Both the position numbers and the translations under genes were made by a program. Shown here piece by piece: positions 6,631 through 61,335 of a DNA stretch of 64,000 bases (the first letter of the stretch is position 1; the number at the start of each line of letters is the position of its first letter). Source of the DNA: Pseudomonadota bacterium (lineage in GTDB: Bacteria > Pseudomonadota > Alphaproteobacteria > Rhizobiales > Hyphomicrobiaceae); contig JAFECE010000002.1 of assembly GCA_018242295.1 (NCBI GenBank), positions 62,001 to 126,000 of the forward strand. The letters run 5' to 3'. The notes under the pieces are model-generated. The model had not been told where the DNA came from. It saw only the letters and a list, made by a program, of their open reading frames with translations, and ran no database searches.

Positions 6631-6672
6631 CGTCATTGGCGCGCTTGCGCCCTGAACGTTGCAGGTCATGAC

Positions 6673-7788: not shown

Positions 7789-7793
7789 GAGCG

Positions 7794-25331: not shown

Positions 25332-25343
25332 GATGTCACTCCA

Positions 25344-27080
25344 TCAGTTGAGTCGCAGACGGCGTTCGGCGAATCCGAAAAGAGGCCGCCAAAAGAGCCG
25401 ATTGAATACGATGACAAATGCCGACATGACGGCGACTCCGAGGACTATCTTGGGATAGTCTCCGGCTTCGGTGGCCTTGGCGATATAAGCGCCAATCCCA
25501 TGTGCCGCGATCTTGTCATTTCCCCATTTCACGTATTCGGCCACGATGCTGGCATTCCATGAGCCTCCGGAAGCCGTCAGCGCGCCGGTAACGTAGTATG
25601 GAAAAATGCCCGGAAGAATGACATTGCGCCACCATTGCCACCCCTTCGCTCGGAAGATCGATGCAGCTTCCTTGAGGTCGTTTGGAAATGCTGCTGCACC
25701 GGCAATAACGTTGAACACAATGTACCATTGCGTACCGAATATGATCAGCACGCTGAGCCAGATATCGGGATTTAGGTTGAACTTCAGGATTGCGATAACC
25801 GCGATCGGAAAGACGACGTTTGCGGGAAACGCCGCGAGGAACTGCGCGAGGGGCTGCATCGTCTCGGCGACCCGCGGTCGGAGACCAATCCAGACGCTGA
25901 TCGGGACCCAGAAAAGAGTGGCGAGAGCCAGCAGAACGACGACACGCACCATTGTTAAGCCGGCAAGACCGATCGTTTCGAGTAAATCGCTCCACGACAG
26001 CTCAGTAGAGACGAAGGCATAGATTTTCGCGACGGCCCACACTGCCACGAGACCAATGACGGCAAACCATATCAGATCGATGATCCGTGAGAGCGATGCG
26101 GATTGATCTGCAACAGGTAGGCGCGGAGGACGCAGCTTCGGGCGGAAATATGCCAACCGCATGAATTGATCGCCGGTCATTTCGGACAGCGACCGAAGCC
26201 AACGTGTTCGTTGGACGAACCGCAAAACCCAAGACTCTTCCTTCGTCTGAGCTGCCGAAAGCTCAACCCGGAACTTGCCGGCCCAGGCAACGATCGGCCG
26301 GAACAGAAATTGGTCGTACGCCAGAATCACAACGAGCATCGTGAGAACCGCAGCGCCGACGGCATCGATACGCTTCTGATCGATGGCAAGAGCCAGATAA
26401 GAGCCAATACCAGGCAGCTGGATGGTGGTATCACCGACTGTGATAGCTTCGGACGCGACGACGAAGAACCAGCCTCCCGACATGGACATCATCGTGTTCC
26501 AGAGAAGTCCCGGTACTGCAAACGGCGTCTCGAGAAACCAGAACCTTTGCCAAGCAGATAGTCGAAAGCCGCGTGTCACTTCCTCAAGGTCGCTCGGTAC
26601 CGTGCGGAGCGATTGATAAAATGAGAATGCCATGTTCCAGGCTTGACTTGTGAAGATCGCGAAGATCGCGGCGCATTCGGCGCCGAGCATGCTTCCCGGA
26701 AAGAGCCCGAGGAAAACGGTCACCGTAAAGGACAGAAAACCAAGTACAGGCACGGACTGCAGAACGTCGAGAATAGGAATGAGCACCATCTCGGCACGGC
26801 GGCTCTTTGCAGCAAGCGTCGCGTACGTGAACGTAAAAAGAAACGATGCCCCGAGGGCAAGAAACATGCGTGCCGTCGTGCGCAAGGCATAATAAGGCAA
26901 GTTCACGTAGTCGAGCGTCACCGCAGACGCACCGGCCGGCGGCAGCGGCATCGCCATCCCGCGCGATGCTTCCGCCACCGCCACGAAAACAGCGATTATA
27001 AGCGCAAAAGCAGCAAAATCCCAAACATTCGGCGCCACGCGCCGACTGATTGGTGGCAGTTCAGGCCACTTGAATGTCAT
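25344..27080 (-). CDS. Fused double-domain ABC permease, NitT/TauT family
   Basis: 578 residues containing two BPD_transp_1 permease domains in one chain: ~80-265 (LALGASFLFTFTYATLAAKSRRAE, ILDVLQSVPVLGFLS, with an EAA-like DLEEVTRGFRLSAWQRFWFLETPFAVPGL) and ~365-560 (PLAQFLAAFPANVVFP, DLKEAASIFRAKGWQWWRNVILPGIFPYYVTG). Two permeases in tandem would make a complete pore with one ATPase dimer. Together with the downstream ATPase it forms a two-gene operon without a binding protein. Confidence 0.88.
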   Translation of the reverse strand: MTFKWPELPPISRRVAPNVWDFAAFALIIAVFVAVAEASRGMAMPLPPAGASAVTLDYVNLPYYALRTTARMFLALGASFLFTFTYATLAAKSRRAEMVLIPILDVLQSVPVLGFLSFTVTVFLGLFPGSMLGAECAAIFAIFTSQAWNMAFSFYQSLRTVPSDLEEVTRGFRLSAWQRFWFLETPFAVPGLLWNTMMSMSGGWFFVVASEAITVGDTTIQLPGIGSYLALAIDQKRIDAVGAAVLTMLVVILAYDQFLFRPIVAWAGKFRVELSAAQTKEESWVLRFVQRTRWLRSLSEMTGDQFMRLAYFRPKLRPPRLPVADQSASLSRIIDLIWFAVIGLVAVWAVAKIYAFVSTELSWSDLLETIGLAGLTMVRVVVLLALATLFWVPISVWIGLRPRVAETMQPLAQFLAAFPANVVFPIAVIAILKFNLNPDIWLSVLIIFGTQWYIVFNVIAGAAAFPNDLKEAASIFRAKGWQWWRNVILPGIFPYYVTGALTASGGSWNASIVAEYVKWGNDKIAAHGIGAYIAKATEAGDYPKIVLGVAVMSAFVIVFNRLFWRPLFGFAERRLRLN

Positions 27081-32150: not shown

Positions 32151-32176
32151 TGTGCAGACCGCTTCGTGCTTGCGTG

Positions 32177-32509
32177 CTACCCGCTCACGACATGGATCTT
32201 GCCGGTCATGCCGGGGTGTACGCGACAGAAGTAAGTGATGGTTCCGGCCTTCGCCATCTGCTGCATGGCAGACTTTCCCGATGGAATTGCTACATCCCAT
32301 TCTCCATCGGTAGCTGTAGCCGTGTGGTCGACGAAGTCGTTATTCGTCCATTCGACCGTATCGCCCACTTTGACCGTGATTTCCGCGGGAGAAAAGACAA
32401 GGTCGGTGATGGCTATCGGCACGACCGCGCCTGCTATTGCGGCGCCAGCGAAAATTGCGAGCGCCCCAAACGCGGGACAACACCACCGCATCCGCATCGC
32501 GCGCTCCAC
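32177..32509 (-). CDS. Cupredoxin (amicyanin/pseudoazurin-like copper protein)
   Basis: 110 residues with signal peptide (FGALAIFAGAAIAGA) and a plastocyanin-like fold. Type 1 copper ligands are visible: His in NNDFVDHTATA, then Cys, His and Met in YFCRVHPGMTGKIHV. It should be a small periplasmic electron carrier or copper-binding stress protein. It overlaps the DUF4142 gene by one base (coupled) and is the last gene of an operon headed by an ECF sigma factor. Confidence 0.88.
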   Translation of the reverse strand: MERAMRMRWCCPAFGALAIFAGAAIAGAVVPIAITDLVFSPAEITVKVGDTVEWTNNDFVDHTATATDGEWDVAIPSGKSAMQQMAKAGTITYFCRVHPGMTGKIHVVSG

Positions 32510-33042
32510 TACTTGGACGTGCTCGCCAGATGCTCGGCGTGCTGCAGATGCCCTTCGAATATCTTGAGGCCCGTCTGCAGAAGCGCTTTGAGTTCGCCGT
32601 TCGACGATGACGGAATGAGCGTGGTCTCGAGCGCATTGTCGACGGTCTTGTGATAGGCGACCTCGTTGTCGACATAGGCCTTGTCGAAAGCCGCGCCTGA
32701 GAGCTTGGAGAGTTCGGCACGTTTCGCCTCGGCCTGCTTCGTCAACGCCTTGCTTGTGTCGTTGTCTTCAGGAGTGACGTTGAGCTTCTTGACCAGCGCA
32801 AGAGCCTTGTCGTTTACGGCCTGATGGTCGCGCACCATGTCGTCGGCGAAGGCACGGACATTGGCGTCCTTCGAAATCTTCAGCGCCTGCTTCGCGGCTT
32901 CGATGTCGATCGCCCCGGCCGTGTACGCGATGTGTGCGATTTGCGGATCGGTTGGATTGCCTCCGGCGTTCGCCGGACCGGCTGCACAAGCGAAAGCCAA
33001 TGCAGCTGCCAAGCCGAGTATATTTGAGTGAGTATGAAGCAT
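32509..33042 (-). CDS. DUF4142 exported protein
   Basis: 177 residues: signal peptide (ILGLAAALAFACAAGPANA) and a DUF4142 four-helix bundle (QIAHIAYTAGAIDIEAAKQALKISKDANVRAFADDMVRDHQAVN, AKRAELSKLSGAAFDKAYVDNEVAYHKTV, LLQTGLKIFEGHLQHAEHL). These ferritin-like periplasmic proteins are typical targets of ECF sigma factors in Hyphomicrobiales; the His and Glu residues on the helices could bind metal. Sandwiched between the sigma factor and the cupredoxin. Confidence 0.88.
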   Translation of the reverse strand: MLHTHSNILGLAAALAFACAAGPANAGGNPTDPQIAHIAYTAGAIDIEAAKQALKISKDANVRAFADDMVRDHQAVNDKALALVKKLNVTPEDNDTSKALTKQAEAKRAELSKLSGAAFDKAYVDNEVAYHKTVDNALETTLIPSSSNGELKALLQTGLKIFEGHLQHAEHLASTSK

Positions 33043-33130
33043 CTTGAATTTCTCCCTGATTGCGAACCGCGTCGGGCCCGTCGCGCTACCAGAGGGATTA
33101 GATGCCGGACTTTCTGGAAGGTTCCCGTCG

Positions 33131-33820
33131 TCAGGCCGGCTTTTTCAGACGCTCGAGCACGGCATCCATTACGCGATCGCAACGCGCGCCGTCGAAACGG
33201 AAAACGTCATCCAGGAAGGATCCCAAATATTCGGCGAGATCTGCTCGGAGCAACCTGCGGGCGCGATGCAGCCGCGTCTTCACCGTCTCCGGTTTGATGC
33301 CAAGCAGATCGGCCGTCTCCTCGACGCTCATGTCTTCGATCGCACGCGCGACGAGCACTGCGCGAAAATCGTCGGGCAGCTTGTCGATCGCCCGCTCGAG
33401 CAGACCGATCACCTCTTTTTGAACAGTCATGCTTTCGGGATTTGCAGTAAAATTCCCGGAGTACGGAAAAGAAATGACTTGAGACTGCATCTCCAGCTGC
33501 AAGCCTTTTGGCTCCGTCGGCAGATCGACGCGCCGCCGCCGCCGCTGTAGGGCCTCGTTGAACACGATGCGCGTCAGCCATGTCGAAAGACTCGACTCCC
33601 GGCGAAACTCACCAAGCGCCGCGAAGGCACGGAGATAGGCCTCCTGCAGCACATCTTCCGCTTCGCTGTCGTCGCGCACGATGCTGCGCGCGATACGGTA
33701 GAGACGACGATTATGGGTGCGGATGATCGCACAAACGGCCGTCTCGTCCCCGGCCGCTGCTCGGCTGACAAGATCGGCCTCCGCCGGTCTGGCTACGACA
33801 TTCAACTCTGATTGAGACAT
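33131..33820 (-). CDS. ECF sigma factor heading the DUF4142-cupredoxin operon
   Basis: 229 residues from the ATG at 33820 (MSQSELNVV). Region 2: LYRIARSIVRDDSEAEDVLQEAYLRAFAAL and SSLSTWLTRIVFNEALQRRRR. Region 4: LERAIDKLPDDFRAVLVARAIEDMSVEETADLLGIKPETVKTRLHRARRLL. It has no adjacent anti-sigma gene. The C-terminal ~40 residues (FLDDVFRFDGARCDRVMDAVLERL) resemble the ECF16/ECF33-like tail. On the same strand come DUF4142 (88 bases on) and cupredoxin, likely its targets. Upstream, on the minus strand, a GGGAACCTTTTG segment may be its -35 region. Confidence 0.9.
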   Translation of the reverse strand: MSQSELNVVARPAEADLVSRAAAGDETAVCAIIRTHNRRLYRIARSIVRDDSEAEDVLQEAYLRAFAALGEFRRESSLSTWLTRIVFNEALQRRRRRVDLPTEPKGLQLEMQSQVISFPYSGNFTANPESMTVQKEVIGLLERAIDKLPDDFRAVLVARAIEDMSVEETADLLGIKPETVKTRLHRARRLLRADLAEYLGSFLDDVFRFDGARCDRVMDAVLERLKKPA

Positions 33821-33942
33821 GCGCAAAACCCTCGCCGGCGGAACGTGCATACATTGGATGCCTGCCGCAACAAAAGGTTCCCGGCGAGGTCATTATTTTC
33901 GTGCGCACACCCCGAATTGAAGATCGTCACGGACGCCAGCGC

Positions 33943-34962
33943 TTATGACGGAGAAGGGCAGCCCACGCCGGCGCCGGACGACAACAGGCGTTCCGCGTCT
34001 TGCACCATACGATCCAGGATCCGCGCAACGGGTTCAATCTCATAGATTAAACCGGCGGCTTCACCGACGAATGTGTTGCTATTCTCAGGATCTCCCTCTG
34101 CCCAAGCGGCGCGATATTTGACGGCCTCTTCGTCTGCGACCGCGCGGAGTTCCGTTTCGTGTCCATGCCAACGTTCGATGAAGCGGTTCTTGAGGACACG
34201 AGCGCTGTACCGGTCCGGCCAATCGAGCTTCCGTGCTAGATCCATGACTTGCGAGCGGATGGTGTCGTCGCCTGTCGCGCTAAGTGCGGCCTGATGCATT
34301 CGCGTGCTGACGTTGGCTTCTTCCGAAGCCCAAAGGCGTGAACCGATAAGAACGCCGTCGGCCCCGAGCATCAATGCCGCCGCAAGCCCTCGGCCGTCGG
34401 CAACGCCTCCTCCGGCGCAGAGCAGCGTTTTGGGCGACGCCTTGGAAATCAAATCCGCAATTTCGGGAACGAGCGAGAACGTGCCCCGCTTTTCACCGTG
34501 ACCTCCCGCCTCGGAGCCCTGGGCGACAATGACGTCGGCGCCGCAATCGAGAGCGTGTTCGGCATCGCGCCGCGTTTGAATCTGGCAGATCAGCGTTATG
34601 TCGCGCTCCTTGATGCGAGCGGCGAATGGCGACGGGTCGTCGAAGGACAAAAGAACCGCCTTCGGATGATGATCGAGAACGAGATCGAGAAGCTCAGGTT
34701 TTTTGCGCAGCGCCCATGTAATGAAACCGCAGCCGACACGCCGGTTTCCGGCTGCGGCAAACTCCTGCGAAAGCCATTCGGAGTCACCATAGCCGCCCCC
34801 GATAAGGCCGAGGCCGCCAGCGTCGGTGATCGCGGCCGCAAGCCTCCCTCCCGCGGCGAACGCCATCGGCGCTCCGATGACAGGAAGGCGCAGATCGAGC
34901 TTTTCTGTAAGTCTGGTCCTCAGCAAGTTGGGCTCCCCCTTAAGGCTATCAAGTTGGCGCAT
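33943..34962 (-). CDS. Nitronate monooxygenase (2-nitropropane dioxygenase family)
   Basis: FMN enzyme that oxidises alkyl nitronates. 339 residues with a TIM-barrel: RLPVIGAPMAFAAGG (FMN site), DVIVAQGSEAGGHGE (catalytic His of the EAGGH motif), CAGGGVADGRGLAAALMLGADGVLIGSRLWA (phosphate loop). The start overlaps the NsrR-like gene by 14 bases, so both are cotranscribed. Linkage to an NO sensor and a hemoglobin suggests the substrate is a nitro compound formed during nitrosative stress; the exact substrate is unknown. Confidence 0.88.
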   Translation of the reverse strand: MRQLDSLKGEPNLLRTRLTEKLDLRLPVIGAPMAFAAGGRLAAAITDAGGLGLIGGGYGDSEWLSQEFAAAGNRRVGCGFITWALRKKPELLDLVLDHHPKAVLLSFDDPSPFAARIKERDITLICQIQTRRDAEHALDCGADVIVAQGSEAGGHGEKRGTFSLVPEIADLISKASPKTLLCAGGGVADGRGLAAALMLGADGVLIGSRLWASEEANVSTRMHQAALSATGDDTIRSQVMDLARKLDWPDRYSARVLKNRFIERWHGHETELRAVADEEAVKYRAAWAEGDPENSNTFVGEAAGLIYEIEPVARILDRMVQDAERLLSSGAGVGCPSPS

Positions 34963-35386
34963 GATCGAGAATTGAGCTCAGTGCTTTCCGATTGCGGACG
35001 ATATCGGCCAGCGTCCAGCTATCGAGCTCTGCGAAGTAGGCTTTGAGCGCACGCTGCAGTGCCAGCCTCAGCTGGCAAGGTTCGCTGATGCGGCACATGT
35101 TGTTTTCGCCGAAGCATTCCACGAGTTGGAAATCGTCTTCAGTTGCCCGCAAGACCTCGCCTAGCGTGATTGTCTGCGCCTCTCTGCCGAGGCGCAGACC
35201 GCCACCCCGTCCGCGCATCGTCTCGATGAACCCGCATTGCCCAAGCCGGTTCACCACCTTCATCAGATGATTTTCGGAAATTCCGTAGGACTGCGCGATT
35301 TGCGCGATCGTACAAAGCCGATCGTCATGAATGCCGAGATACATCAGCACCCGAAGCGAATAATCCGACAGGACGGTCAGTCGCAT
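34949..35386 (-). CDS. nsrR: Rrf2-family NO-sensing repressor, NsrR-like
   Basis: 145-residue regulator beginning MRLTVLSDYSLRVLMYLGI. The winged helix (AQIAQSYGISENHLMKVVNRLGQCGFIETMRGRGGGLRL) matches NsrR. Three cysteines, Cys91, Cys98 and Cys104 (ECFGENNMCRISEPC), are placed as in NsrR iron-sulfur ligands; nitric oxide would destroy the cluster and release DNA. It is divergent from the truncated hemoglobin across an operator that fits NsrR. The frame extends 27 codons upstream across the operator, so the start at 35386 is much more likely. Confidence 0.88.
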   Translation of the reverse strand: MRLTVLSDYSLRVLMYLGIHDDRLCTIAQIAQSYGISENHLMKVVNRLGQCGFIETMRGRGGGLRLGREAQTITLGEVLRATEDDFQLVECFGENNMCRISEPCQLRLALQRALKAYFAELDSWTLADIVRNRKALSSILDHAPT

Positions 35387-35427
35387 GCTGCCTACTCCCG
35401 CACGTGCCGCCTTGAAGCAAGGCATAT

Positions 35428-35450
35428 AAGATGTATAATTGGTACATCTT
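35428..35450. promoter_or_regulatory. NsrR operator
   Basis: AAGATGTA-N7-TACATCTT, perfect 8-bp arms, in the divergent nsrR/hemoglobin promoter region. It closely matches the known NsrR target (AAGATGCA...TGCATCTT). One site could control both directions. Position relative to starts: 42 bases before nsrR and 28 before the hemoglobin ATG. Confidence 0.8.
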
Positions 35451-35477
35451 ATTCCAGCCATCGTCAAAGGTCACGTC

Positions 35478-35918
35478 ATGCACATTGCGCCCCGACCCAA
35501 TGCCCCCGGTGTGGCCGCAGGTATCGATGAAGAACTGATCGGGACTCTGGTCGACGAGTTCTATGCGGCTGTCAGAAAGGACGAGCTTCTCGGTCCTGTC
35601 TTCGCGGCACGTGTTGCCGATTGGACCGAGCACCTTGCGAAGCTGCGCGAATTCTGGTCGTCGGTCGTCTTGATGACTGGCCGTTACAAAGGCCGTCCGA
35701 TGCCGGTGCACGCGGCAATCGCCGAAATATCGGACATGCACTTCGAGCGGTGGCTGGCAATTTTCAGAGAAACCGCCCGAAACGTCTGCCCGCCTCAGGC
35801 TGCGGCGCTATTCATTGACAGGTCAGAGCGGATCGCCGAGTCGCTTCGTCTCGGCATAGCCCTCAGTCGTGGCGACGATTCCGTCCTTCACGCGCCTCGT
35901 CGCGTGGAACGGAGTTAG
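35478..35918 (+). CDS. Group III truncated hemoglobin
   Basis: 146 residues from the ATG at 35478. Globin fold of the trHbP class: IGTLVDEFYAAVRKDELLGPVFAARVADWTEHLAKLREFWSSVVLMTGRYKGRPMPVHAAI. The heme-proximal His is likely the one in PMPVHAAI, and the aromatic Tyr in FYAAV sits near the distal side. Such proteins oxidise NO or sense it. The upstream operator and NsrR-like gene argue for NO induction. An alternative start at 35439 would cross the operator. Confidence 0.85.
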   Translation: MHIAPRPNAPGVAAGIDEELIGTLVDEFYAAVRKDELLGPVFAARVADWTEHLAKLREFWSSVVLMTGRYKGRPMPVHAAIAEISDMHFERWLAIFRETARNVCPPQAAALFIDRSERIAESLRLGIALSRGDDSVLHAPRRVERS

Positions 35919-36150
35919 TCACGCGATCCTATGTATTTGCCCGCTAGTTAGCCGGGCTGGCTAATAAATTTTATCCGCCAGTCATTGGCCATTTGCCGTG
36001 ACAGCGGTCTTGGCCTAAATTGAAGAAGGACGCGCTGGACGACCGGCGCTTATGACTCATCGGGGACGGCCCCATCTCAATGGAGGGGTATGGTGTCCCG
36101 TTTCAGAAAAATGTGCATCTCAAACGCGCCGGCAAAATGCGGAGCGAGCG

Positions 36151-36399
36151 ATGCCCTGTGATCTCAGAATTGATGACAACGCACGCCAGGAATTCTGCAT
36201 CCTGCGGAATATGCACCCCGTTGGTGCGAGGATCGGCCAATTTATGAATGGGCCCCTCTATGACTCGATCGAAGACGAATGGGGCCGCGTGTACCGCTAC
36301 GTTGGAGTCTGTCCTCGTGTCGGCCGCCATTACGCAATCGTGCTGGGCAAGCGAGAATTCATCTATCCACCGGGCATCATCTACCGCATGTTTGGATAG
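36151..36399 (+). CDS. Small conserved protein, unknown
   Basis: 82 residues from the ATG at 36151 with a GGAG site just upstream. Sequence MPCDLRIDDNARQEFCILRN ... FIYPPGIIYRMFG, with four Cys spread over the chain and a possible beta-rich domain (WGRVYRYVGVCPRVGRHYAIVLGKREF). The frame is open to 36052 but the extra part is not protein-like. No family recognised. Confidence 0.5.
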   Translation: MPCDLRIDDNARQEFCILRNMHPVGARIGQFMNGPLYDSIEDEWGRVYRYVGVCPRVGRHYAIVLGKREFIYPPGIIYRMFG

Positions 36400-36561
36400 G
36401 AATTAAGATTGAGACGCAGCAGATTTCCAAAATATCACCTTAAGCTTGGAAATTATCCTCTGATACGCTGCAACAAGTGACGCGTATCGGGAATTTATCT
36501 GTCGGTTAGCAGGCGAATTCACGCCGCACCGGCGCGATCAATCCAAGAGGAGTTTATTCGA

Positions 36562-36966
36562 ATGAAATCGAAATTACTGGGTGCAGCCGCCCTTGTCGTC
36601 ACTGGGCTCGTAAGCCTCAGCTTTACAGGCCCGCTTCTGGCGGAGTCCACGAGTCTGAGCGCGCTCGATCCCGATAAAGATGGGACGGTCGATTTGCAGG
36701 AAGCGAAAACTGCGGCTGCGGCGGTGTTCGCGAAGCTGGACCCCGACAAGGACGGCACTCTCGACGCGAAGGAGCTTTCGGGCCGCGTCGATGCAGCCGC
36801 TATCAAGGCAGCCGATCCCGACAGCGACGGAACCCTCGATCAGAAGGAATACGAGTCGCTGGTCGAAGCGCGCTTCAAGGCAGCCGATCCCGATAGTGAC
36901 GGCACGCTTGACGACAAGGAACTCGGAACTGACGCCGGAAAGTCTTTCCTGCATCTCGTCGAATAG
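36562..36966 (+). CDS. lanM: Lanmodulin (lanthanide-binding EF-hand protein)
   Basis: 134 residues: signal peptide (~1-28, ending LLAES), then four EF-hand loops, each with Pro at position 2: D36-E47 (DPDKDGTVDLQE), D60-E71 (DPDKDGTLDAKE), D85-E96 (DPDSDGTLDQKE) and D109-E120 (DPDSDGTLDDKE). Loops 1-2 and 3-4 are only 12 residues apart, not about 25. Pro at position 2 and short spacing are the lanmodulin hallmarks; the chain aligns with Methylorubrum extorquens LanM along its length. It should bind lanthanides tightly in the periplasm. The strong ribosome site CAAGAGGAG and the terminator behind it make it a single-gene unit. No xoxF or lut transport gene is nearby. Confidence 0.93.
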   Translation: MKSKLLGAAALVVTGLVSLSFTGPLLAESTSLSALDPDKDGTVDLQEAKTAAAAVFAKLDPDKDGTLDAKELSGRVDAAAIKAADPDSDGTLDQKEYESLVEARFKAADPDSDGTLDDKELGTDAGKSFLHLVE

Positions 36967-36973
36967 TCTTCTT

Positions 36974-37019
36974 GGCCGCCTGGTCTGTAAGCAAGTCGCA
37001 GTCCAGGCGGCCCCTTTTT
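36974..37019 (+). terminator. Rho-independent terminator of lanM
   Basis: Perfect 10-bp stem GGCCGCCTGG / CCAGGCGGCC, then CCTTTTTC. It starts 7 bases after the lanM stop. Confidence 0.8.
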
Positions 37020-37075
37020 CTCATTTTAGGTCGCCCTCTGGGCGCGGACCCATTTTCTTCGAACGAGAATATAGC

Positions 37076-37297
37076 ATGGCATATTTCGTCACGTTCGGAG
37101 CAACGCCGGTGCCGATAGGCAGTGAACATCCTGACCTTTCCGCAGCGCTAGAGGAAGCCTGCAGGCTGATCGCCGATGGGCAATCGAACGTCGCGATCCA
37201 GTTTGGCGATGGTAGGTCGATCTCTGGCGATGATCTTATTGCGTGCTGCTCCGGACAAAAGGCGATCGGCGAGCACTTGTTCAAAAAGGCGACCTAA
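37076..37297 (+). CDS. Small conserved protein, unknown
   Basis: 73 residues (MAYFVTFGATPVPIGSEHPD; CRLIADGQSNVAIQFGDGRSISGDDLIACCSG). Beta-alpha-beta composition, two adjacent Cys near residue 57. It starts 56 bases after the lanM terminator, so probably an independent unit. The frame extends upstream through lanM, but the ATG at 37076 is the natural start. Function unknown. Confidence 0.55.
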   Translation: MAYFVTFGATPVPIGSEHPDLSAALEEACRLIADGQSNVAIQFGDGRSISGDDLIACCSGQKAIGEHLFKKAT

Positions 37298-37507
37298 GGC
37301 TATTGCAGCCGCTGGCTGACACCGGAATGCACAGTTGCGATTGTAACGATCCACCTCGCAACACACACGCCATGCACTGAATGCTCGCGGGCCGCTGGCA
37401 TTGGCTCTTGCCTGTAACGATTTCTTCTCTAAAGCGGTGTTCCCGTATCGAATTCCGGCGCGCGCCGCTTCGGAAAGCCGGGGTAGCGAAGCAGAAGGGA
37501 ACCGGGC

Positions 37508-39046
37508 ATGAATGGTGCGCAATCACTTATTGCGGCGGCGCTGAGCGAAGGCATCGAAGTCTGCTTTGCCAATCCCGGTACGACCGAGCTGCCTTTGGTG
37601 CTCGCGCTCGATGAGGCCCCTGGAATTCGCAGCATCCTTTGTCTTCACGAGAACGTCGCAACTGGTGCCGCCGATGGCTACGGCAGAATGTTGTCGAAGC
37701 CGGCGATGTGCCTGCTCCATCTCGGACCAGGATTGGCGAACGGCCTGACCAATCTGCACAACGCGCGCAGGGCTGGGACGCCACTTCTGAACGTCATCGG
37801 CGAACATGCGACATGGCACATCCAGGCCGATCCGCTGTTGGCATCAAATATCGAAGCGCTTGCACACACGTTTAGTGCGTTTGCGAAGAGAAGCACCGAT
37901 GCTCGGAGCATTGCCGTCAACTTGGCCGATGCGGTCCACGCCACGGGCATAGGCGGCGGCATCGCCACGCTGATCGTGCCGCATGACTGTCAGTTGGCGT
38001 ATGCGGCCGATGTAATTCCTGCTCGCCGCCAGGTTCCAAAAAGCAGCTATTCGCCGGCAAATGTCGGCGATGCGGCCAAGGCGCTGCAGCGAGGCAGGTC
38101 CGCCATTTTGTTGGGCGGCAAAGGTCTGTCGGAAGCCGGTCTGAAGCTCGCAGGCAGAATCGCCGCCGCGACCGGCGCCGATCTCCTTTGCGATACGTTC
38201 TTTGCGCGCATGGAACGCGGCGGCGATTTGCCCATGGCGACAAGGCTGCCTTACTTCCCCGATCAGGCGCTGGCGCTCACGCGTCCCTACGACAGCGTCG
38301 TGCTCGCCGGTACGCGCCGCCCTGTCGCCTTTTTCGGTTATCCGGGCTTGCCAAGCTATTTGACCACTGAAGAACAGACCGTCGCCCTGGCGACCAGCGC
38401 AGAGGATGTGCTGGGCGACCTCGAGGCATTGGCCGCGGAGCTCAATGCGCCCAATGACATTCCGCAGAAACCGCGCATGCAGTTGCCCGCGATGCCGAAA
38501 GGGGAACTGAACGCGCAATCCGTCGCTCAGGTCATTGCGCGGCTTCAGCCCGAAAACGGCATCGTCATGGATGAGGCGCTGACTGTGGGAATTGCGTACT
38601 TCGACTCCTCGCAAAGCGCTCCACGCTTCAGCCATCTGATGCTGACCGGCGGCGCGATCGGCCAAGGGCCCGGAGCGGCAACGGGTGCGGCCATCGCTTG
38701 CCCCGGCCGCAAGGTCATCAATTTCGAATCCGACGGCTGCGGCGCTTATTCGGTCCAAGCATTCTGGACTCAGGCGCGCGAGAACTTGGATGTCGTCACC
38801 ATTATCGGCTCCAACCGCAGCTACAACATTTTGAATGTGGAATTTGAACGGGCGGGGGTGAAGCCGCTGGGTCCCATTGCGCGCTCGATGACCAGGCTCG
38901 ATCATCCCTATCTCGACTGGGTCAGGATTGGCGAAGGCTTCGGCGTGCCCTCCGTCGCCGTCGATAGCGCCGAAGGCCTCGCACGTGAATTGGAGAATGC
39001 TCTCGCGCGAAAAGGGCCACGGCTGATCGAAGCGATTATGTCGTAA
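37508..39046 (+). CDS. ThDP-dependent acetolactate-synthase-like enzyme
   Basis: 512 residues of the large-subunit-like family without a small subunit. Catalytic Glu for ThDP activation is present (LCLHENVATGAADGYGR). The ThDP/Mg site, normally GDG(S/A)...N, is degenerate: NFESDGCGAYSVQAFWTQARE...SNRSYN, with Ser for the first Gly. Middle domain ~190-310. Such proteins include benzoylformate-decarboxylase-like and acetolactate-synthase homologs of unknown substrate. Single gene; convergent with the Kdp-linked EIIA gene. Confidence 0.8.
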   Translation: MNGAQSLIAAALSEGIEVCFANPGTTELPLVLALDEAPGIRSILCLHENVATGAADGYGRMLSKPAMCLLHLGPGLANGLTNLHNARRAGTPLLNVIGEHATWHIQADPLLASNIEALAHTFSAFAKRSTDARSIAVNLADAVHATGIGGGIATLIVPHDCQLAYAADVIPARRQVPKSSYSPANVGDAAKALQRGRSAILLGGKGLSEAGLKLAGRIAAATGADLLCDTFFARMERGGDLPMATRLPYFPDQALALTRPYDSVVLAGTRRPVAFFGYPGLPSYLTTEEQTVALATSAEDVLGDLEALAAELNAPNDIPQKPRMQLPAMPKGELNAQSVAQVIARLQPENGIVMDEALTVGIAYFDSSQSAPRFSHLMLTGGAIGQGPGAATGAAIACPGRKVINFESDGCGAYSVQAFWTQARENLDVVTIIGSNRSYNILNVEFERAGVKPLGPIARSMTRLDHPYLDWVRIGEGFGVPSVAVDSAEGLARELENALARKGPRLIEAIMS

Positions 39047-39071
39047 CTCAATCAACCGCGGTTTTGCGCGG

Positions 39072-39536
39072 TCACCGCTTCTCTGGCTCTGCCGTGATCA
39101 GCCGGTAAAAAATGTCCGGGTCCTGAATGACGCGCAGTTTCTGCGTAACCTCGCGGCTGCGCATGCGTCGCGACACCGCGGCCAGCATATTGAGATGATC
39201 GCCTTCAGCGGCTGCCGGAACGAGCAGAACAAAAACCAGGTCGACCGGCAGATTGTCGATCGCTTCAAAATCCACCGCAGGCTTCAGACGCGCGACGAGT
39301 CCGAAGGGCTTTTTCAGCCCGAGATAGCGCGCGTGCGGAATGGCTACACCGCCGCCCATGCCCGTCGATCCGAGCTGCTCGCGCTTCATGAGTTCCGTGA
39401 CGATGACATCGCTGCTCAAGCCGGTGGATGGCGCAGCGTGTCGCGCCAGGTCACGCAGCAGAGAGAGTTTATCCGGTGCGCGGAAATCGAGGAGCACGTC
39501 GCTCGGCGAGAGGAAGTTTGAGATGCTGTTCGTCAT
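39072..39536 (-). CDS. EIIA(Ntr)-like PTS domain protein, last gene of kdp operon
   Basis: 154 residues of the PTS fructose/nitrogen EIIA family. The phosphorylatable His68 is in GGGVAIPHARYLGL. Ending ...YRLITAEPEKR. The start overlaps kdpE by 4 bases (ATGA type), so it is translated with the KdpD/KdpE system. In Enterobacteria unphosphorylated EIIA(Ntr) binds KdpD and tunes kdp expression; a kdp-linked copy is therefore likely a dedicated modulator of KdpD or Kdp. This role is inferred. Confidence 0.85.
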   Translation of the reverse strand: MTNSISNFLSPSDVLLDFRAPDKLSLLRDLARHAAPSTGLSSDVIVTELMKREQLGSTGMGGGVAIPHARYLGLKKPFGLVARLKPAVDFEAIDNLPVDLVFVLLVPAAAEGDHLNMLAAVSRRMRSREVTQKLRVIQDPDIFYRLITAEPEKR

Positions 39537-40237
39537 TTCGCCTGCTCGAGTTCGTCGGGAATGCGCAGGCGATATCCAACGCCTGTTTCGGTCAGAATGT
39601 ACTCGGGGCTATCCGGATGAATTTCGATCTTTTGCCTCAACTGCCGGACGTAGACGCGCACGTACTGTGAATCCGCCGACGGCCCCCAGAGTTCCCGTAG
39701 CAATAGATTATGGGTTAAGACTTTTCCTGCATGTTGAACGAACAAGCGGAGCAGATCGTATTCCTTCGGCGATAGCTTTACCTCGCGATCGCCGATTTTG
39801 ACGATTCGCCGGACGAGATCGACCGACAAATCTCCAGTGCGAAAAATGGGGCGCTCGCCTTGGCTTTGCAGCTGGTGACGCAGCGCCGCGCGAATGCGTG
39901 CAAGAAGCTCGTTGATACCGAACGGCTTCGTAACGTAGTCGTCCGCGCCGAGATCGAGGGCGTGGACTTTAGCACTCTCGTCGGCCCTGCTCGAAAGCAC
40001 CACGATTGGAACGGACTCGTTCTTCGTGCGCAGTTCGCGCAGCAAATCGAGACCTTGCATGTCGGGAAGTCCGAGGTCCAGGATGATGAGATCTGGCTTT
40101 GTGTCCATCAGCTCCAGCGCGGCCTTGGCGTTGGGCGCGTCCGTTACCTGATAGCCCTGCGTGGCGAGGCCCATGCGGAGGAGCTTCCGAATGGGCGGTT
40201 CATCGTCGATGACCAGAACGTTGAGAGGCGCACTCAT
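39533..40237 (-). CDS. kdpE: Response regulator KdpE
   Basis: 234 residues, OmpR/PhoB family. Receiver with phosphoacceptor Asp in LIILDLGLPDMQG and Lys in DDYVTKPFG; C-terminal winged-helix (~130-230: LSPKEYDLLRLFVQHAGKVLTHNLLLRELWG, YVRVYVRQLRQKIE). It overlaps kdpD by 4 bases and the EIIA gene by 4 bases. It should activate kdpFABC when K+ is limiting. Confidence 0.95.
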   Translation of the reverse strand: MSAPLNVLVIDDEPPIRKLLRMGLATQGYQVTDAPNAKAALELMDTKPDLIILDLGLPDMQGLDLLRELRTKNESVPIVVLSSRADESAKVHALDLGADDYVTKPFGINELLARIRAALRHQLQSQGERPIFRTGDLSVDLVRRIVKIGDREVKLSPKEYDLLRLFVQHAGKVLTHNLLLRELWGPSADSQYVRVYVRQLRQKIEIHPDSPEYILTETGVGYRLRIPDELEQAK

Positions 40238-42957
40238 GCGGCGTGATCCAACGTTTCGCTCTCGTAGCCAGCAGGTAAGGTGATCGTGAAAACGGCGCCG
40301 TGGCCGTCGGTACGGTTGGCAGCCGTGATCGTGCCGCCCATGATCTCGACAAACCCCCGCGCGATCGGAAGTCCGAGGCCGGTGCCCGCGCGAACCCGAT
40401 CGCCCTTATGCGCACGATAAAATTTATCGAAGATCCGCTCAAGATCGGCCGGCGGGATTCCGGGACCTTCATCCGAAATCTGCAAACTCAGGAGGTCGTA
40501 ATCCTGCCACGCGCGGATTTGAATGGCTGTGCCTTCAGGCGCGTATTTTGCGGCATTATCCAAAATATTGAAAAGCACCTGCTCCAAGAGAACCGGATCG
40601 GTCCGGACTTGCGGATTGCCCGCGGCGGAACTGTATTGCACGCGATGATTCGCGAGAATTTTCTTTGCTCTCTTGAGCGCCGCATCTACGATCTCGCTGA
40701 CGTCATGCACCTCCGGCTTCGGCGCCACGGCGCCGGCCTCGAGTTTCGTCATATCCAACAGATTGGCGATGAAGCGATTAAGGCGTTCGGATTCATCGAC
40801 GACCGTGGAAAGTAGCTCGCGGCGTGAGTCATCGTCGAGCTTGTCGGAAATATCGCGCATGGTGCTGGCCGCTCCGAGAATTGCCGCAAGCGGCGTCTTG
40901 AGGTCATGCGATAGCGACGTCAGCAACGCGGCACGAAGACGCTCCGTCTCCATCGTGCGCTTGGCCTGTTCGATGTCCTGCACTAACCGCACGCGTTCGA
41001 TGGCTAGCGCACCCTGGTTGATCAGCGCGTCGAATAAACGCCGCTGATCGGGCGTCAGCAATGGCCCCGGCTTGTCACCGTCGATCCCGACGACGCCGAC
41101 GACGCCGCGATCGGTATGCATCGGGAGAAAAAGCCTTTGCGAGCCGGGGAGGGTGTCTGCGCCGCGTCCGGCAGGGCGATCGTTCATCCATGCCCACGTT
41201 GCCGCTGCGAGATCGGAGGCATCGAGCGCATCTTCCGGCGGATAGCCGGCTTTCACGGCGATTCCTCCATTTTCCGGTAGCAGCAGCACGACGTGGACCT
41301 TCAGCATCGACGCGATCTGGAAGGCGGTCGCCCACAGCACATCATCGAGAGTTCCAGTCCCGGCGAGTTTGCGGCTGAAGCCGTAGAGCGATTCCGTCGT
41401 GCTGGCGCGATTGACCGCGATGACGGCTTGGCTGCGCATGCGGGCCGCGATGTTCGAAACGACGATTGCGACAATTGCGAACGTCACAAATGCTGCGACG
41501 TTCTTAGGATCCGAAATGGTGAAAGTGTAGAGCGGTGGGAGAAAAAAGAAATTATACGTCAGCGACCCGAGCACGCTCGCGACAAGCGAAGGCAGGAGCC
41601 CATAGCGAACAGCGACGGCGATGACGCTCGTCAGAAAGATGAGATCGACACTCTCGACACCAATCCATGGCTTGAGCAGCCACGCGACGCCAAGCGCCAC
41701 GGTCGTAGCCGTCAGGGCGAACGTGTAGGCCAAGAGATTGTTCGAAGGTGCCGCCGGTGCTGTTCGCACCGGTGGCCTCGGCTGGGGACCGGCGGGCAGT
41801 TGCTCGCCCGAAATGACATGAACGCTGATGTCGGCCGATTGCCGGACGAGATCGTGAACGACCGAGCCATGGAGAATCTCGAACCAGCGCGGCCGTTCGG
41901 ACTTGCCGATGATGATCTGCGTGACGTTATGGTCGCGCGCATATGCCATGATGTCGTCGGCGATCTTCCGCGAGCTTCCCGGAATCGTGAGTGTTTCTGC
42001 GCCCAACTGCTCGGCAAGGCGCAGAGCTTCCGCGATGCGGTTTCGCTCCTCGTCGGAAAGACGGAGGCCCCGCCGGGTCTCGATTGTCAATGCCGTCCAA
42101 GGCGCGTGTAGGCGATCGGCCGCGCGTTTGGCGTAACGCACGAGCCCCGCCGAGCGGGGATCTTCGCTGATGCAGACGAGCACGCGTTCGCAGGCGGCCC
42201 AGGGGCCTGACATCGCTTTAGCGCGGAGTTGCGTAACGAGCTGTTCGTCGACGCGTTCAGCCGTTCGCCGCAATGCCATTTCCCTGAGAGCCGTTAGATT
42301 GACGGGCGAGAAGAAGTTCTCGAGCGCGAGCCGCGCCTGCTCGGGAATATAAACTTTACCCTCTTTGAGCCGCTGGATCAGATCCTCAGGCGTGATGTCG
42401 ACGAGTTCGACATCGTCGGCACGAGCCAGAATTGAATCGGGCACAGTTTCCCGCACGCGGACGCCGGTTATCTGCGCTACGACTTCGTTCAGACTTTCGA
42501 CATGCTGGATATTGACCGTCGTGTAGACGTCGATGCCCTGATCCAACAGTTCCTCGACGTCGAGGTAACGCTTGGGATGCCGGCTCGAAGGGGCGTTCGT
42601 GTGCGCCAGCTCATCCACCAGCGCGATTTGCGGATGGCGTGCGATGAGTGCGTCGAGATCGAGCTCATCGAGGATCTTACCTTTATATTCGATCTTCCGC
42701 GGCGGAATGACCTCGACGTTGCGCAGAAGCGCCTTCGTCTCTTTCCGGCCATGCGTCTCGACGACCCCGGCAACGACGTCTACGCCTTCCCTGATCTTGG
42801 CGCGCGCGGTGCGCAGCATCTCATATGTCTTGCCGACGCCCGGGGCAGCGCCGAGAAAGATCTTCAATCGGCCGCTGCGGTGTGTCTCCCGGCGTGAAAT
42901 CTCGAGTAGAGCGTCCGGCGACGGCCGTTTGTGCTCCGCGTGGGTATCGTCTGCCAT
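40234..42957 (-). CDS. kdpD: Sensor histidine kinase KdpD
   Basis: 907 residues. N-terminal KdpD domain with Walker A GAAPGVGKTYEML and DELAHTNAP; UspA-like domain (~250-375: RVLVCISEDPRSAGLVRYAKRAADRL); DUF4118 with four membrane segments (~410-500: VALGVAWLLKPWIGVESVDLIFLTSV); GAF-like region (~530-640); HisKA with phosphorylatable His in SLSHDLKTPLAAI; HATPase with DNAAKYAPEG, DEGPGIPP and GTGLGLPIARG. Sensor of K+ limitation and turgor, coupled to kdpE. Confidence 0.97.
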   Translation of the reverse strand: MADDTHAEHKRPSPDALLEISRRETHRSGRLKIFLGAAPGVGKTYEMLRTARAKIREGVDVVAGVVETHGRKETKALLRNVEVIPPRKIEYKGKILDELDLDALIARHPQIALVDELAHTNAPSSRHPKRYLDVEELLDQGIDVYTTVNIQHVESLNEVVAQITGVRVRETVPDSILARADDVELVDITPEDLIQRLKEGKVYIPEQARLALENFFSPVNLTALREMALRRTAERVDEQLVTQLRAKAMSGPWAACERVLVCISEDPRSAGLVRYAKRAADRLHAPWTALTIETRRGLRLSDEERNRIAEALRLAEQLGAETLTIPGSSRKIADDIMAYARDHNVTQIIIGKSERPRWFEILHGSVVHDLVRQSADISVHVISGEQLPAGPQPRPPVRTAPAAPSNNLLAYTFALTATTVALGVAWLLKPWIGVESVDLIFLTSVIAVAVRYGLLPSLVASVLGSLTYNFFFLPPLYTFTISDPKNVAAFVTFAIVAIVVSNIAARMRSQAVIAVNRASTTESLYGFSRKLAGTGTLDDVLWATAFQIASMLKVHVVLLLPENGGIAVKAGYPPEDALDASDLAAATWAWMNDRPAGRGADTLPGSQRLFLPMHTDRGVVGVVGIDGDKPGPLLTPDQRRLFDALINQGALAIERVRLVQDIEQAKRTMETERLRAALLTSLSHDLKTPLAAILGAASTMRDISDKLDDDSRRELLSTVVDESERLNRFIANLLDMTKLEAGAVAPKPEVHDVSEIVDAALKRAKKILANHRVQYSSAAGNPQVRTDPVLLEQVLFNILDNAAKYAPEGTAIQIRAWQDYDLLSLQISDEGPGIPPADLERIFDKFYRAHKGDRVRAGTGLGLPIARGFVEIMGGTITAANRTDGHGAVFTITLPAGYESETLDHAA

Positions 42958-42995
42958 CTAGGCCATTCCCGGGGGCGCCTGCCGCCGCGTCAGAT

Positions 42996-43601
42996 TTAAC
43001 GCAGAGCGGCGCCGTCCAGATCGAGGTTCAGCGCCAGTACATTGATATGGGGTTCACCGATTAAACCAAAAAGACGCGTTTCGATATGGCTATCAACGAG
43101 TTTCTTGACGTCTTGCTCCGGCAGGTTGCGGGCCTTGGCGACGCGGGGCACCTGGAAATACGCCGCCGCCGGCGAAATATCCGGATCGAGCCCGCTGGCG
43201 GTCGTCGTCACTAGATCGAGCGGAACGGGCACCCCCGGATTTTCTCCCTTGAGCTTATCGACGTCGCCCTTCACACGATCGATCAGCGCCTTGTTCGTTG
43301 GGCCGAGGTTCGATCCCATGGAGTTTGCCGCATTGTAAGGCTGCGGCACGGTTTTGCTTGGATCGGCGGGATCGGTCCCCGTCGTCGCCGACGGCCGTCC
43401 ATGGAAATACCGGTCGCTCGTGAAATTCTGGCCGATGAGTTCTGATCCGATGACTTTGCCATCACGCACGATCAGACTTCCCTCTGCCTGCTTTGGAAAG
43501 AGCACGCCGGCAATTCCGGTCATCGCCAGAGGATAGATGAGGCCCGTCAGGACGGTCAGCGCGATCAGCAAAGCGAACGCCGGGCGAAAGAGTTTGATCA
43601 T
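42996..43601 (-). CDS. kdpC: K+-transporting ATPase subunit C
   Basis: 201 residues, single membrane helix near the N-terminus (AFALLIALTVLTGLIYPLAMTGIAGVLFP), then the soluble KdpC domain (GQNFTSDRYFHGRPSAT, SNLGPTNKALIDRV, DLVTTTASGLDPDISPAAAYFQVPRVAKAR). It stabilises nucleotide binding of KdpB. Sits 11 bases after kdpB and before kdpD. Confidence 0.96.
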   Translation of the reverse strand: MIKLFRPAFALLIALTVLTGLIYPLAMTGIAGVLFPKQAEGSLIVRDGKVIGSELIGQNFTSDRYFHGRPSATTGTDPADPSKTVPQPYNAANSMGSNLGPTNKALIDRVKGDVDKLKGENPGVPVPLDLVTTTASGLDPDISPAAAYFQVPRVAKARNLPEQDVKKLVDSHIETRLFGLIGEPHINVLALNLDLDGAALR

Positions 43602-43612
43602 CGAAGTTACCC

Positions 43613-45724
<2,112 letters not shown>

Positions 45725-45744
45725 TTCGCGTGTCTCCGAGGAAA

Positions 45745-47448
45745 TCAGAAGAGCATGTTTCTGGTCATCGAGATGTGCTCGACGATCGGACCGAGAGCCA
45801 GAGCAGGGAAGAACGTCAGTCCACCAACGATGACGATGACGCCGACGACCAATCCGACGAAGAGGGTTCCTGTCGTCGGAAAAGTGCCCACTGACGGCGG
45901 CACGATCTTCTTCTCAGCCATAGAGCCGGCAATGGCGAGCGCCGGAATGATCATGAAGAAGCGGCCGACGAACATCGCGATGGCGCCCGTGACGTTGTAG
46001 AACGGGGTATTGCCGGTGATGCCTCCAAACGCCGAACCATTGTTCGCGGTCGAGGATGTGAAGAGATAGAGCATCTCCGAGAAGCCATGTGGTCCGGGGT
46101 TCGCGATAGAGGCGACGGCGGACGGAAGAACCGACGCCACGGCGGTAAAGCCCAAGTACATCAGCGGAAGGACGAGGATCGCGAGCATCGCCATCTTCAC
46201 TTCCTTCGCTTCGATCTTCTTGCCGACATACTCCGGTGTGCGGCCGACCATGAGACCGGCGACGAAGATCGCGATCACGATGAAGATCAGCATGCCGTAG
46301 AGGCCTGCGCCGACGCCGCCGATAATGATCTCGCCGAGCTGCATGTTGATCATCGGGATCATGCCGCCGAGCGCCGTGAACGAGTCATGCATGGCGTTGA
46401 CCGCGCCGCACGAAGCAGCCGTCGTGACGACCGCGAAGAGCGAAGACGCGGCGATGCCGAAGCGAACCTCTTTGCCCTCCATGTTACCGCCGGTCAGGCC
46501 GAGCTCGTTAAGACCGGTGATGCCAGCCGATTCCGCCCAGTAGCAGACAGCGACGCCGGCGACGAAGAGCACGCCCATGACCCAGAGGATTGCCCAGCCT
46601 TGCTTCTGATTTCCCGCCATGCGGCCGAAGACATTCGTCAGCGCTGCGCCAAGAGCAAAGATCGACACCATTTGCACGAAGTTTGAGAACGCCGTCGGAT
46701 TCTCAAAGGGATGTGCGGCGTTCGCATTGAAGAAGCCACCGCCATTCGTGCCGAGCATCTTGATCGCGACCTGCGAGGCGACAGGGCCAACCGCGATCGT
46801 CTGCTTGCCGCCTTCGAGTGTCGTCGCATCGACGTAAGCGCCGAGCGTTTGCGGCGTGCCGTCCCAAACAAGGAACAGCGTGTAGACGATGCAAATGGGC
46901 AATAGAATGTAGAGCGCGCAACGGGTGATATCGACCCAGAAGTTGCCGATATTGCGTGTGGAAGCGCGCGTAAAACCGCGAATAAGCGCAATGGCGACGA
47001 CGATGCCGGTCGCTGCCGATAGGAAGTTCTGATGCGTCAGGCCAAGCATCTGGCTGAGATACGAAAGCGTCGTTTCTCCGCCGTAGTTCTGCCAGTTCGT
47101 GTTCGTTATGAAGCTGACGGCGGTATTGAATGACAGATCGGGCGCAACTGCTGTCATGCCCTGGGGATTGAACGGCAGCCAGCCTTGCGTCCGCAGCACG
47201 ATATAAAAAATGAGGAAGCCGCCGACATGAAACATCAGCATGGAGACGGTATACGTCAGCCAATCCTGCTCGGACCGCTCGTTCACGCCAGCAATTTTAT
47301 AAAGTGCGACCTCGATCGGCCTCACCGCTGGGGAAAGAAGCGTTCTCTCGCCCGCAAACACGCGGTTCATGTACCAGCCGAGAGGTTTCACGAGCGCAAC
47401 GACGACGGCGCAGAACAAGGCGATCTGCGCCCAACCGGCGAGGGTCAT
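45745..47448 (-). CDS. kdpA: K+-transporting ATPase subunit A
   Basis: 567 residues, ten-helix potassium-channel-like subunit of the KdpFABC complex (superfamily of K+ transporters). Selectivity-filter style segments include [23 protein letters not shown] and [22 protein letters not shown], and [16 protein letters not shown]. It selects K+ and passes it to KdpB. The kdpF peptide lies 12 bases upstream. Confidence 0.97.
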
Positions 47449-47460
47449 TTGAGATGCCTT

Positions 47461-47550
47461 TCAGAAGAATTCAGGGCGCACAAGCGCGTAGATGAGATAA
47501 AGCAGCAGTCCGGCCGTGACGACCCCTGCCAATGCGTAATCGAATGTCAT
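47461..47550 (-). CDS. kdpF: Kdp subunit F peptide
   Basis: 29 residues, MTFDYALAGVVTAGLLLYLI followed by YALVRPEFF. One membrane helix with the typical YALxRPE(x)F ending of KdpF. It stabilises the KdpFABC complex in the inner membrane. It lies 10 bases after the extra peptide and 12 before kdpA. Confidence 0.93.
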   Translation of the reverse strand: MTFDYALAGVVTAGLLLYLIYALVRPEFF

Positions 47551-47560
47551 GTGAGAATCC

Positions 47561-47644
47561 TCACAGCCGATCGCAGGCAAAGGCGTAGGCGATGGAAAGC
47601 GCGAAGAGTGCCAGCCCGCCTGCGAGAAGGATGATGTCGTACAT
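47561..47644 (-). CDS. 27-residue membrane peptide at the head of the kdp operon
   Basis: MYDIILLAGGLALFALSIAY followed by AFACDRL. A single hydrophobic helix ending with a short Cys-Asp-Arg-Leu tail. A GGAG ribosome site precedes the ATG, and its stop is 10 bases from kdpF. Its tight position, regular coding frame and membrane character argue that it is translated. Similar peptides sit ahead of kdpF in other Hyphomicrobiales to my recollection, but their role is unknown. Confidence 0.7.
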   Translation of the reverse strand: MYDIILLAGGLALFALSIAYAFACDRL

Positions 47645-47744
47645 CTGATGCTCCGATCCTTTGGGCTCGCGCGGGGGTGGACGGCGAGCAGCGGCGGATA
47701 CGTGCCACTCGCGGCATAGGAATTCGAGTTGATCGGATCGGGGG

Positions 47745-47766
47745 ACTTATAGGAATCTCATAAAGT
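47745..47766. promoter_or_regulatory. Possible KdpE box
   Basis: ACTTATAGGAATCTCATAAAGT, an A/T-rich imperfect dyad (ACTTAT / ATAAAGT), about 100 bases before the first kdp peptide. KdpE binds T-rich sequences upstream of kdp, and this is the only A/T-rich dyad here. Weak support. Confidence 0.3.
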
Positions 47767-61245: not shown

Positions 61246-61335
61246 GCCTTCGGCGTCTCCGCCGGGTAGCGCCGCGACGTGCCTCGAGCCGCCGCGCCCG
61301 CAAACCAGCAATTCAGATCAGTAGGAAATTTGCAA

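Follow-up and report, generated by a model that had tools for sequence, protein, structure and literature searches.

Lanmodulins (LanMs) bind Ln(III) with picomolar affinity and a selectivity of about 10^8 over Ca(II), passing from disorder to order. In sequence they are recognized by four EF hands, gaps of 12-13 residues between adjacent loops and Pro at position 2 of the loops (Pro2), while calmodulin-like Ca(II) EF-hand proteins have about 25 residues between adjacent loops (PMC10232371). In Methylorubrum extorquens AM1, lanM sits in the lut cluster (PMC7391723, PMC9260416). The gene lies away from lut genes in Methylobacterium aquaticum 22A, with neighbours functionally unrelated to Ln transport (PMC9260416), and in Methylocella silvestris, where lanM is not co-located with lut homologues (PMC9291206); for neither do the excerpts describe mxa linkage. 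The M. silvestris protein was up 39- and 26-fold with lanthanum (PMC9291206), as is expected of a lanthanide-handling protein. Loss of lanM did not impair growth on methanol in knock-outs of M. extorquens PA1 and of M. aquaticum 22A, so that a delivery role is not proven even in these strains; expression of lanM is MxcQE-dependent in M. aquaticum, and that of mxcQE becomes Ln-dependent only when LanM is missing (PMC9260416). Hans-LanM of Hansschlegelia quercus is distinguished by Asn1/Glu9 loops and a metal-dependent dimer (PMC10232371). In the excerpts of the openly licensed literature consulted, linkage of lanM with mxa genes was not found described (PMC10232371, PMC9260416, PMC11845868, PMC12482762, PMC8999231, PMC8561711, PMC9291206, PMC7391723).

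The window, i.e. the whole stretch of 64,000 nucleotides analysed here, belongs to a genome (G000; 4.05 Mb, 11 contigs, 99.99% completeness) whose nearest lanM loci are in GTDB genomes labelled Hyphomicrobium. Its lanM stands alone, unlike the gene of strain AM1, and in relatives the neighbours are mxa genes. The initial annotation regarded a lanM outside the lut cluster as an oddity, which the published cases of M. aquaticum 22A and M. silvestris do not bear out; what is new is the evolutionary setting, namely a lanM unit left between two apparent deletions of mxa genes and the adjoining regulator. The coordinates of the annotated ORF (134 codons and a stop) proved exact, and the four EF-hand loops with Pro2, the Asp opening loop 4 (D109) and the Ser at position 4 of loops 3 and 4 were all found as described. 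Every loop has the form DPDxDGTxDxxE, with Pro at position 2, Asp at 9 and Glu at 12. The described paired 12-residue spacing holds for the first and third gaps, the middle one having 13 residues. The N-terminus looks like a signal peptide when read by eye, and the precursor is probably cleaved after A27. Features are collected in Table 1.

Table 1. Features of the lanM locus in window coordinates.
Feature	Positions	Strand	Evidence
Left flank common with G008 (89.6%): NMO-type oxidoreductase, Rrf2 regulator, globin, conserved ORF 36052-36399	33950-36402		blastn, family scans
Left scar of 22 bases (about 1.2 kb in G008, including a response-regulator gene)	36403-36424		blastn
Promoter element TGGAAATTATCC	36447-36458	+	type found in 10 of 15 aligned lanM upstream regions
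Second promoter element GGGAATTTATCT (42 bases downstream of the first)	36489-36500	+	upstream alignment
lanM, 134-aa lanmodulin precursor	36562-36966	+	NF053806, 156.5 bits; phmmer, 7.3e-37 to 6mi5
Signal peptide (putative), residues 1-27	36562-36642	+	by eye; low-confidence N-terminus in model
EF-hand loop 1 DPDKDGTVDLQE, residues 36-47	36667-36702	+	sequence, loop scan
EF-hand loop 2 DPDKDGTLDAKE, residues 60-71	36739-36774	+	sequence, loop scan
EF-hand loop 3 DPDSDGTLDQKE, residues 85-96	36814-36849	+	sequence, loop scan
EF-hand loop 4 DPDSDGTLDDKE, residues 109-120	36886-36921	+	sequence, loop scan
Rho-independent terminator, 10-bp G+C-rich outer stem and T run	36974-37020	+	folding with shuffles
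Right scar of 18 bases (19.9 kb in G008, including the gene of a small secreted protein and the mxa cluster)	37022-37039		blastn
Right flank common with G008 (91-92%): TPP enzyme; PTS IIA-like and kdp genes (by eye)	37040-47773		blastn, family scans

The assignment as a LanM homolog was borne out by a curated equivalog model, the sequence, the loop spacing and the modelled fold. The protein exceeds the cut-off (135) of the NCBIfam LanM equivalog at E = 3.5e-46 and, with 134 residues, is within the limit of fewer than 200 for a LanM with four EF-hand loops; its gaps of 12, 13 and 12 residues are of the 12-13-residue type and not of the calmodulin type of about 25, and all four loops carry the Pro2 demanded of at least one. 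LanM (7e-37) is far closer than calmodulin (7e-4 at best): among PDB sequences compared by phmmer, the best matches are both Mex-LanM of M. extorquens AM1 (6mi5 and 8fns, 7.3e-37 and 1.4e-36, respectively), followed by a lanthanum-bound protein of Ancylobacter (9pi2, 4e-15) and Hans-LanM (8dq2, 1.2e-13). Next comes a flagellar radial spoke protein (4.1e-6), and the calmodulins begin no higher than 6.7e-4. An AlphaFold model built from a 31-row alignment (mean pLDDT 85; low in the first 30 residues and 89-98 per ten-residue block from residue 31) predicts the three-helix-bundle fold of solved LanMs, with four PDB matches at E <= 0.001, all of them LanM. It agrees with 8fns at a TM score of 0.96 by target length and an rmsd of 0.7 (62% identity over the aligned core), less closely with the NMR entry 6mi5 (TM 0.70, rmsd 3.6), and with Hans-LanM (8dq2 and 8fnr) at TM 0.89 and 0.88 by target length despite only 35% and 34% identity. 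Mex-LanM shares the four loops, Pro2, Asp9, the gaps and the modelled fold, and differs in that its loop 4 starts with Asn; the Asp of the window protein, offered as unusual, is common at this position (21 of 31 aligned homologues, with Asn in 10) and was rejected as a special feature. By its sequence, therefore, the protein is a typical lanmodulin that adds one more member to an established family, and it is expected to bind Ln(III) by analogy with relatives measured by others. An ordinary calcium-binding calmodulin-like protein, a reading to which the matches of EF-hand Pfam models to the window protein lend some colour, is extremely improbable and was rejected by phmmer E-values about 33 orders of magnitude weaker for calmodulins than for LanM, the loop spacing, Pro2 and modelled fold being all of LanM type as well.

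The gene has the terminator of its own that had been claimed: a strong hairpin directly 3' of the stop followed by TTTTT (-28.6 kcal/mol, z -6.25, equalled by 0 of 200 shuffles), where a simple pattern scan also has one terminator-like site, with a mean of 1.2 in shuffled sequence. Upstream of the start codon is a ribosome-binding-site-like AAGAGGAG, a sigma-70-type promoter was not found by simple pattern scan, and Rfam families at gathering score were not found in 36000-37500. Genome-wide searches for PQQ alcohol dehydrogenases and LutH relatives had zero matches inside the window, in agreement with the claim of no xoxF or lutH nearby, and thus no LutH-type receptor gene adjoins lanM; the closest gene of XoxF type lies some 238 kb off on this contig. 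In family scans covering 18 window proteins, the scanned immediate neighbours of lanM belong to families other than lut ABC transporter or periplasmic genes, and for the ABC genes at 24024-27080 the highest scores are those of the taurine/nitrate type. Two scanned TonB receptors were considered as lutH and rejected; that at 3080-5860 scores as heme-type and that at 61279-63831 as siderophore/PqqU-type, both below every cut-off.

The sister genome G008 (Hyphomicrobium sp. AWTP1-10, RXJH01000001.1) has a LanM 92% identical over residues 20-134, with a promoter and terminator alignable with the window at 89%, and differs in that its lanM lies between a response regulator and mxa genes. When the window was compared by blastn with 95 kb of G008 contig C5, three segments matched: 33950-36402 with 396246-393781 at 89.6%, the 0.6-kb lanM unit (36425-37021) with 392579-391980 at 88.8%, and 37040-47773 with 372118-361388 at 91-92% (two pieces, split at the stretch boundary). 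The extra 19.9 kb of G008 carries a small secreted protein gene (F4), mxa genes with mxaF, a mxaJ-like gene and mxaI, and a second sensor-kinase/regulator pair. No orthologue of the regulator missing on the left turned up in the rest of G000 (36% identity at best). Since the window sequence runs across both junctions, a contig break is not the cause. The two genomes differ further to the left of 33950, where window 32159-33949 is unmatched in the part of G008 compared and about 7.4 kb of G008 is unmatched in the window; the region has thus been rearranged more widely than the two scars. An ORF at 37076-37297 was considered as an mxa remnant and rejected because it falls in the right flank common with G008.

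In 22 genomes of the genus, a strong LanM match (over 110 bits) was present in 14, 12 of them over the model cut-off, and occurred together with mxaI in 11. The two genes are within 10 kb (8-10 kb) in eight of these 11 (G001, G004, G005, G008, G009, G013, G014 and G020) and on different contigs in the other three (G003, G010 and G016). Besides the window, 14 lanM loci from 13 genomes (one with two) were compared, and seven of them have the order response regulator, lanM, F4 and then mxa genes on the opposite strand, the mxa names being those we presume from gene order, Pfam VWA/DUF58/MoxR-type matches and recall. Outside G008, the full order is kept in G001, G005, G009, G013 and G014. A regulator of one family is found in eight of the 14 loci, that of G008 and seven at 70-87% identity to it; the G004 regulator is more distant (35%). 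Regulator and lanM are still together in G003 (H. facile DSM 1565) and G016, with mxa elsewhere, and mxaF of G020 has lanM on its other side. Another genus of the same family (G102) has a NarL-type regulator, lanM, F4 and a divergent mxaF within about 5 kb, its regulator being 63% identical to the second regulator of G008 and 34% to the first. Among other GTDB loci (L009-L032; flanks up to 6 kb, some shorter; two from MAGs labelled Hyphomicrobium), a LutH-like gene is near lanM in L009, L011, L012, L016, L018, L021, L023 and L028, a XoxF/MxaF-like gene (35-38%) in L029 and a distant regulator in L021 and L030, with no further match to the query set in these flanks. The distant regulator of L030 (5343-5939, Rhodoblastus acidophilus) is a response regulator directly upstream of lanM, 41% identical to that of G008.

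The mxa linkage is a place to seek LanM partners, in particular the NarL-type regulator and the small secreted protein beside lanM. F4 has about 127 residues and looks secreted, and its G008 copy (L085, 8440-8820, minus strand) matches neither Pfam nor NCBIfam families; it occurs also in L081, L082, L086, L089, L090, L091 and L170, directly downstream of lanM in seven congeneric loci and in another genus. It is a possible partner of LanM, absent beside the window gene.

Co-occurrence of lanM with mxaI is only weakly associated within the genus (11 genomes with both, 3 with mxaI only, 3 with lanM only and 5 with neither; Fisher p 0.08). In a sample of 249 genomes of the order, with lanM called at E <= 1e-20, 22 have both, 9 lanM only, 12 mxaI only and 206 neither (p 4e-16, with related genomes not independent). 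Only G004 and G102, both of this family, have lanM and mxaI within 10 kb among the 22 genomes with both (contig breaks can hide some), so that the linkage is a family feature in this sample and not general for lanM.

The missing segments are probably deletions in the G000 lineage rather than gains in G008, and the solitude of the window lanM looks like a derived state after two deletions in the mxa locus. In a codon-based rpoB DNA tree of 19 of the 22 genomes (G017 and G018 had no rpoB match and G021 a fragment), G000 and G008 are joined (100/99), and their sister clade, G003 and G016, keeps regulator and lanM together; the complete order recurs on deeper branches. The flanks common to the window and G008 are located elsewhere, away from lanM, in G003, G006, G016 and G020, which means that the block reached this site before the G000/G008 split and that the site is recent; on the deletion reading, both deletions would postdate the split. 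The recent site could also suit the reverse polarity, in which lanM stood alone first and G008 gained a regulator and mxa on its two sides, and so could the scatter of the label 'lanM near mxa' on the tree (6 changes against a shuffled mean of 6.3, 255 of 500 as low). This label is no more clustered than when shuffled, which calls for repeated loss or movement; a single origin does not follow from the tree alone. The reverse polarity is nevertheless very improbable, because two separate gains would have had to rebuild the order of G001, G005, G009, G013 and G014, and because the sister clade still has regulator and lanM side by side.

An additional Asp near the catalytic Asp is a mark of lanthanide-dependent PQQ alcohol dehydrogenases. 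The six TIGR03075 matches of G000 comprise four full-length PQQ alcohol dehydrogenases, of which that on C11 narrowly misses the cut-off, and two short, weak matches on C5. The full-length enzymes read DEWDYDG, DEWDYDG, DQWDYDG and DVWDLDS around the catalytic Asp, while the MxaF of G008 reads DEWDFAG, with Ala where all four have Asp; an MxaF-type sequence is absent among these four, and MxaI (PF02315), present in 14 of the 22 genus genomes, is absent from G000. Contig C2 further encodes three LutH-like receptors (40-41% identity). G000 is thus equipped for lanthanide-dependent but, by these markers, not calcium-dependent methanol oxidation.

In our preferred reading, which we consider likely, the window LanM is a periplasmic lanthanide buffer or shuttle that was kept when the mxa genes and the regulator were deleted from an ancestral block. 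The secreted protein would bind periplasmic lanthanide ions by its EF-hand loops, passing from disorder to a three-helix bundle, and would buffer or shuttle them from outer-membrane uptake receptors to XoxF/ExaF-type alcohol dehydrogenases. In the ancestor, the genes for a response regulator, LanM, a small secreted protein and the calcium-dependent methanol dehydrogenase (mxa) would have formed one block, from which the G000 lineage would have lost the mxa genes and the regulator on either side, leaving the lanM transcription unit. We infer both the buffering role and an adaptive retention.

It is rather unlikely that lanM is a passive relic which the deletions merely missed and which has had too little time to be lost. 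The frame, the terminator, the ribosome-binding site and two promoter elements are intact, and dN/dS against G008 is 0.12 (dN 0.039, dS 0.324), similar to neighbouring genes (0.03-0.25 in eleven long neighbours, with 0.245 for the Rrf2 gene; 0.09 and 0.11 in the short ORFs at 36052 and 37076, which are outside these eleven). Residues 33-134 have five differences from the G008 protein, none at a ligand position. Pairwise dN/dS includes the time before the deletion and is no proof of selection since then; moreover, S99, G122 and H131 are unique to the window LanM among 11 copies, and strong lanM and mxaI are both absent in G002, G006 and G012 (99-100% complete) and in G018 and G019 (84-85% complete), as would also suit a relic. 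In these five genomes, all PQQ dehydrogenases examined (seven loci, one or two per genome) have the extra Asp; thus lanM is dispensable for such life, as G002, G006 and G012 have lanthanide-type PQQ dehydrogenases without strong lanM, a point against our preferred reading.

LanM might instead act in the lanthanide switch, setting the free lanthanide level read by a sensor (mxa off, xox on) without any delivery. The linkage of Hyphomicrobium lanM to mxa and a NarL-type regulator and the relations between LanM and MxcQE in M. aquaticum (PMC9260416) speak for this. We hold it to be improbable to a similar degree as the relic, because lanM persists in G000 although mxa and the regulator are gone, and because nine of the 31 lanM genomes in the order sample are without mxaI. 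G000 is thus not alone in having lanM without mxaI; so do G015 and G017, with lanM matches of 119.6 and 118.4 bits, below the cut-off, in genomes 92% and 71% complete. G000 offers a natural experiment on the purpose of lanmodulin: a lanM kept after apparent loss of the calcium enzyme and the neighbouring regulator, set against congeners with neither lanM nor mxaI, helps to separate a calcium/lanthanide switch from lanthanide handling as such.

Returning to retention for lanthanide handling, we tentatively suggest, as quite possible, that Hyphomicrobiaceae lanM is part of the mxa locus and that G000 is a natural knock-out of mxa and an MxaB-like regulator, with lanM alone kept for lanthanide-only alcohol metabolism and perhaps re-wired via promoter elements related to the palindrome GGGAANNNTTCCC. 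Both TATCACCTTA and an element of GGGAAATTATCC type recur in 10 of the 15 congeneric lanM upstream regions that were aligned. The 64-kb window has only three sites that differ from GGGAAWTTWTCC by one base or none, and two of them are those in the lanM promoter, 42 bases apart. The G008 promoter has three such sites at steps of 42-43 bases, of which the farthest, a perfect GGGAATTTTTCCC, is inside the segment missing from the window, leaving the window promoter with imperfect copies only. Exact GGGAANNNTTCCC is found at four sites in G000 against three for the reversed control, so that the number alone is no evidence. One is 214 bases ahead of a LutH-like receptor gene, one (C10:5774) about 76 bases upstream of a gene pair of sensor kinase and NarL-type regulator, in this order, one (C5) before a gene without evident link, and the fourth is on C6; a near match, GGGAAAAAATCCC, is 91 bases before the XoxF-type gene on C2. 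Among 72 of the GGGAANNNTTCCC sites listed, from 16 genomes and with three listed G016 sites set aside, five are within 1 kb of lanM (0.03 expected) and 10 within 10 kb of a listed TIGR03075 match (2.6 expected), the rows listed for TIGR03075 leaving out most genomes without counted sites and a few others. The motif linking lanM, LutH-like and regulator genes is accordingly a lead and not a result. The pair on C10 may be the remaining regulator of lanM and the LutH-like genes. At this locus (L168, 3722-5786), the perfect copy upstream of the pair reads GGGAAAAATTCCC, and a MxaD-like gene (by eye) adjoins.

Several minor observations were made. A second EF-hand protein of G000 (C6:218227-218517; L061, L080) matches the LanM model weakly (about 20-37 bits) and recurs in most other genus genomes. 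Divergent LanM-like proteins with 41-43% identity and fewer canonical loops are found in L092, L093 and L094 (G015, G017 and G009, respectively), and G009 has its copy besides a canonical LanM. The receptor at 61279-63831 matches PqqU (PQQ receptor) at 149 bits against a cut-off of 1200 and sits in a genome with several PQQ enzymes. Window 1392-9133 is a likely heme-uptake cluster, with the heme-type TonB receptor, ExbB and TonB, and sigma/anti-sigma-like and heme-oxygenase-like ORFs recognized by eye.
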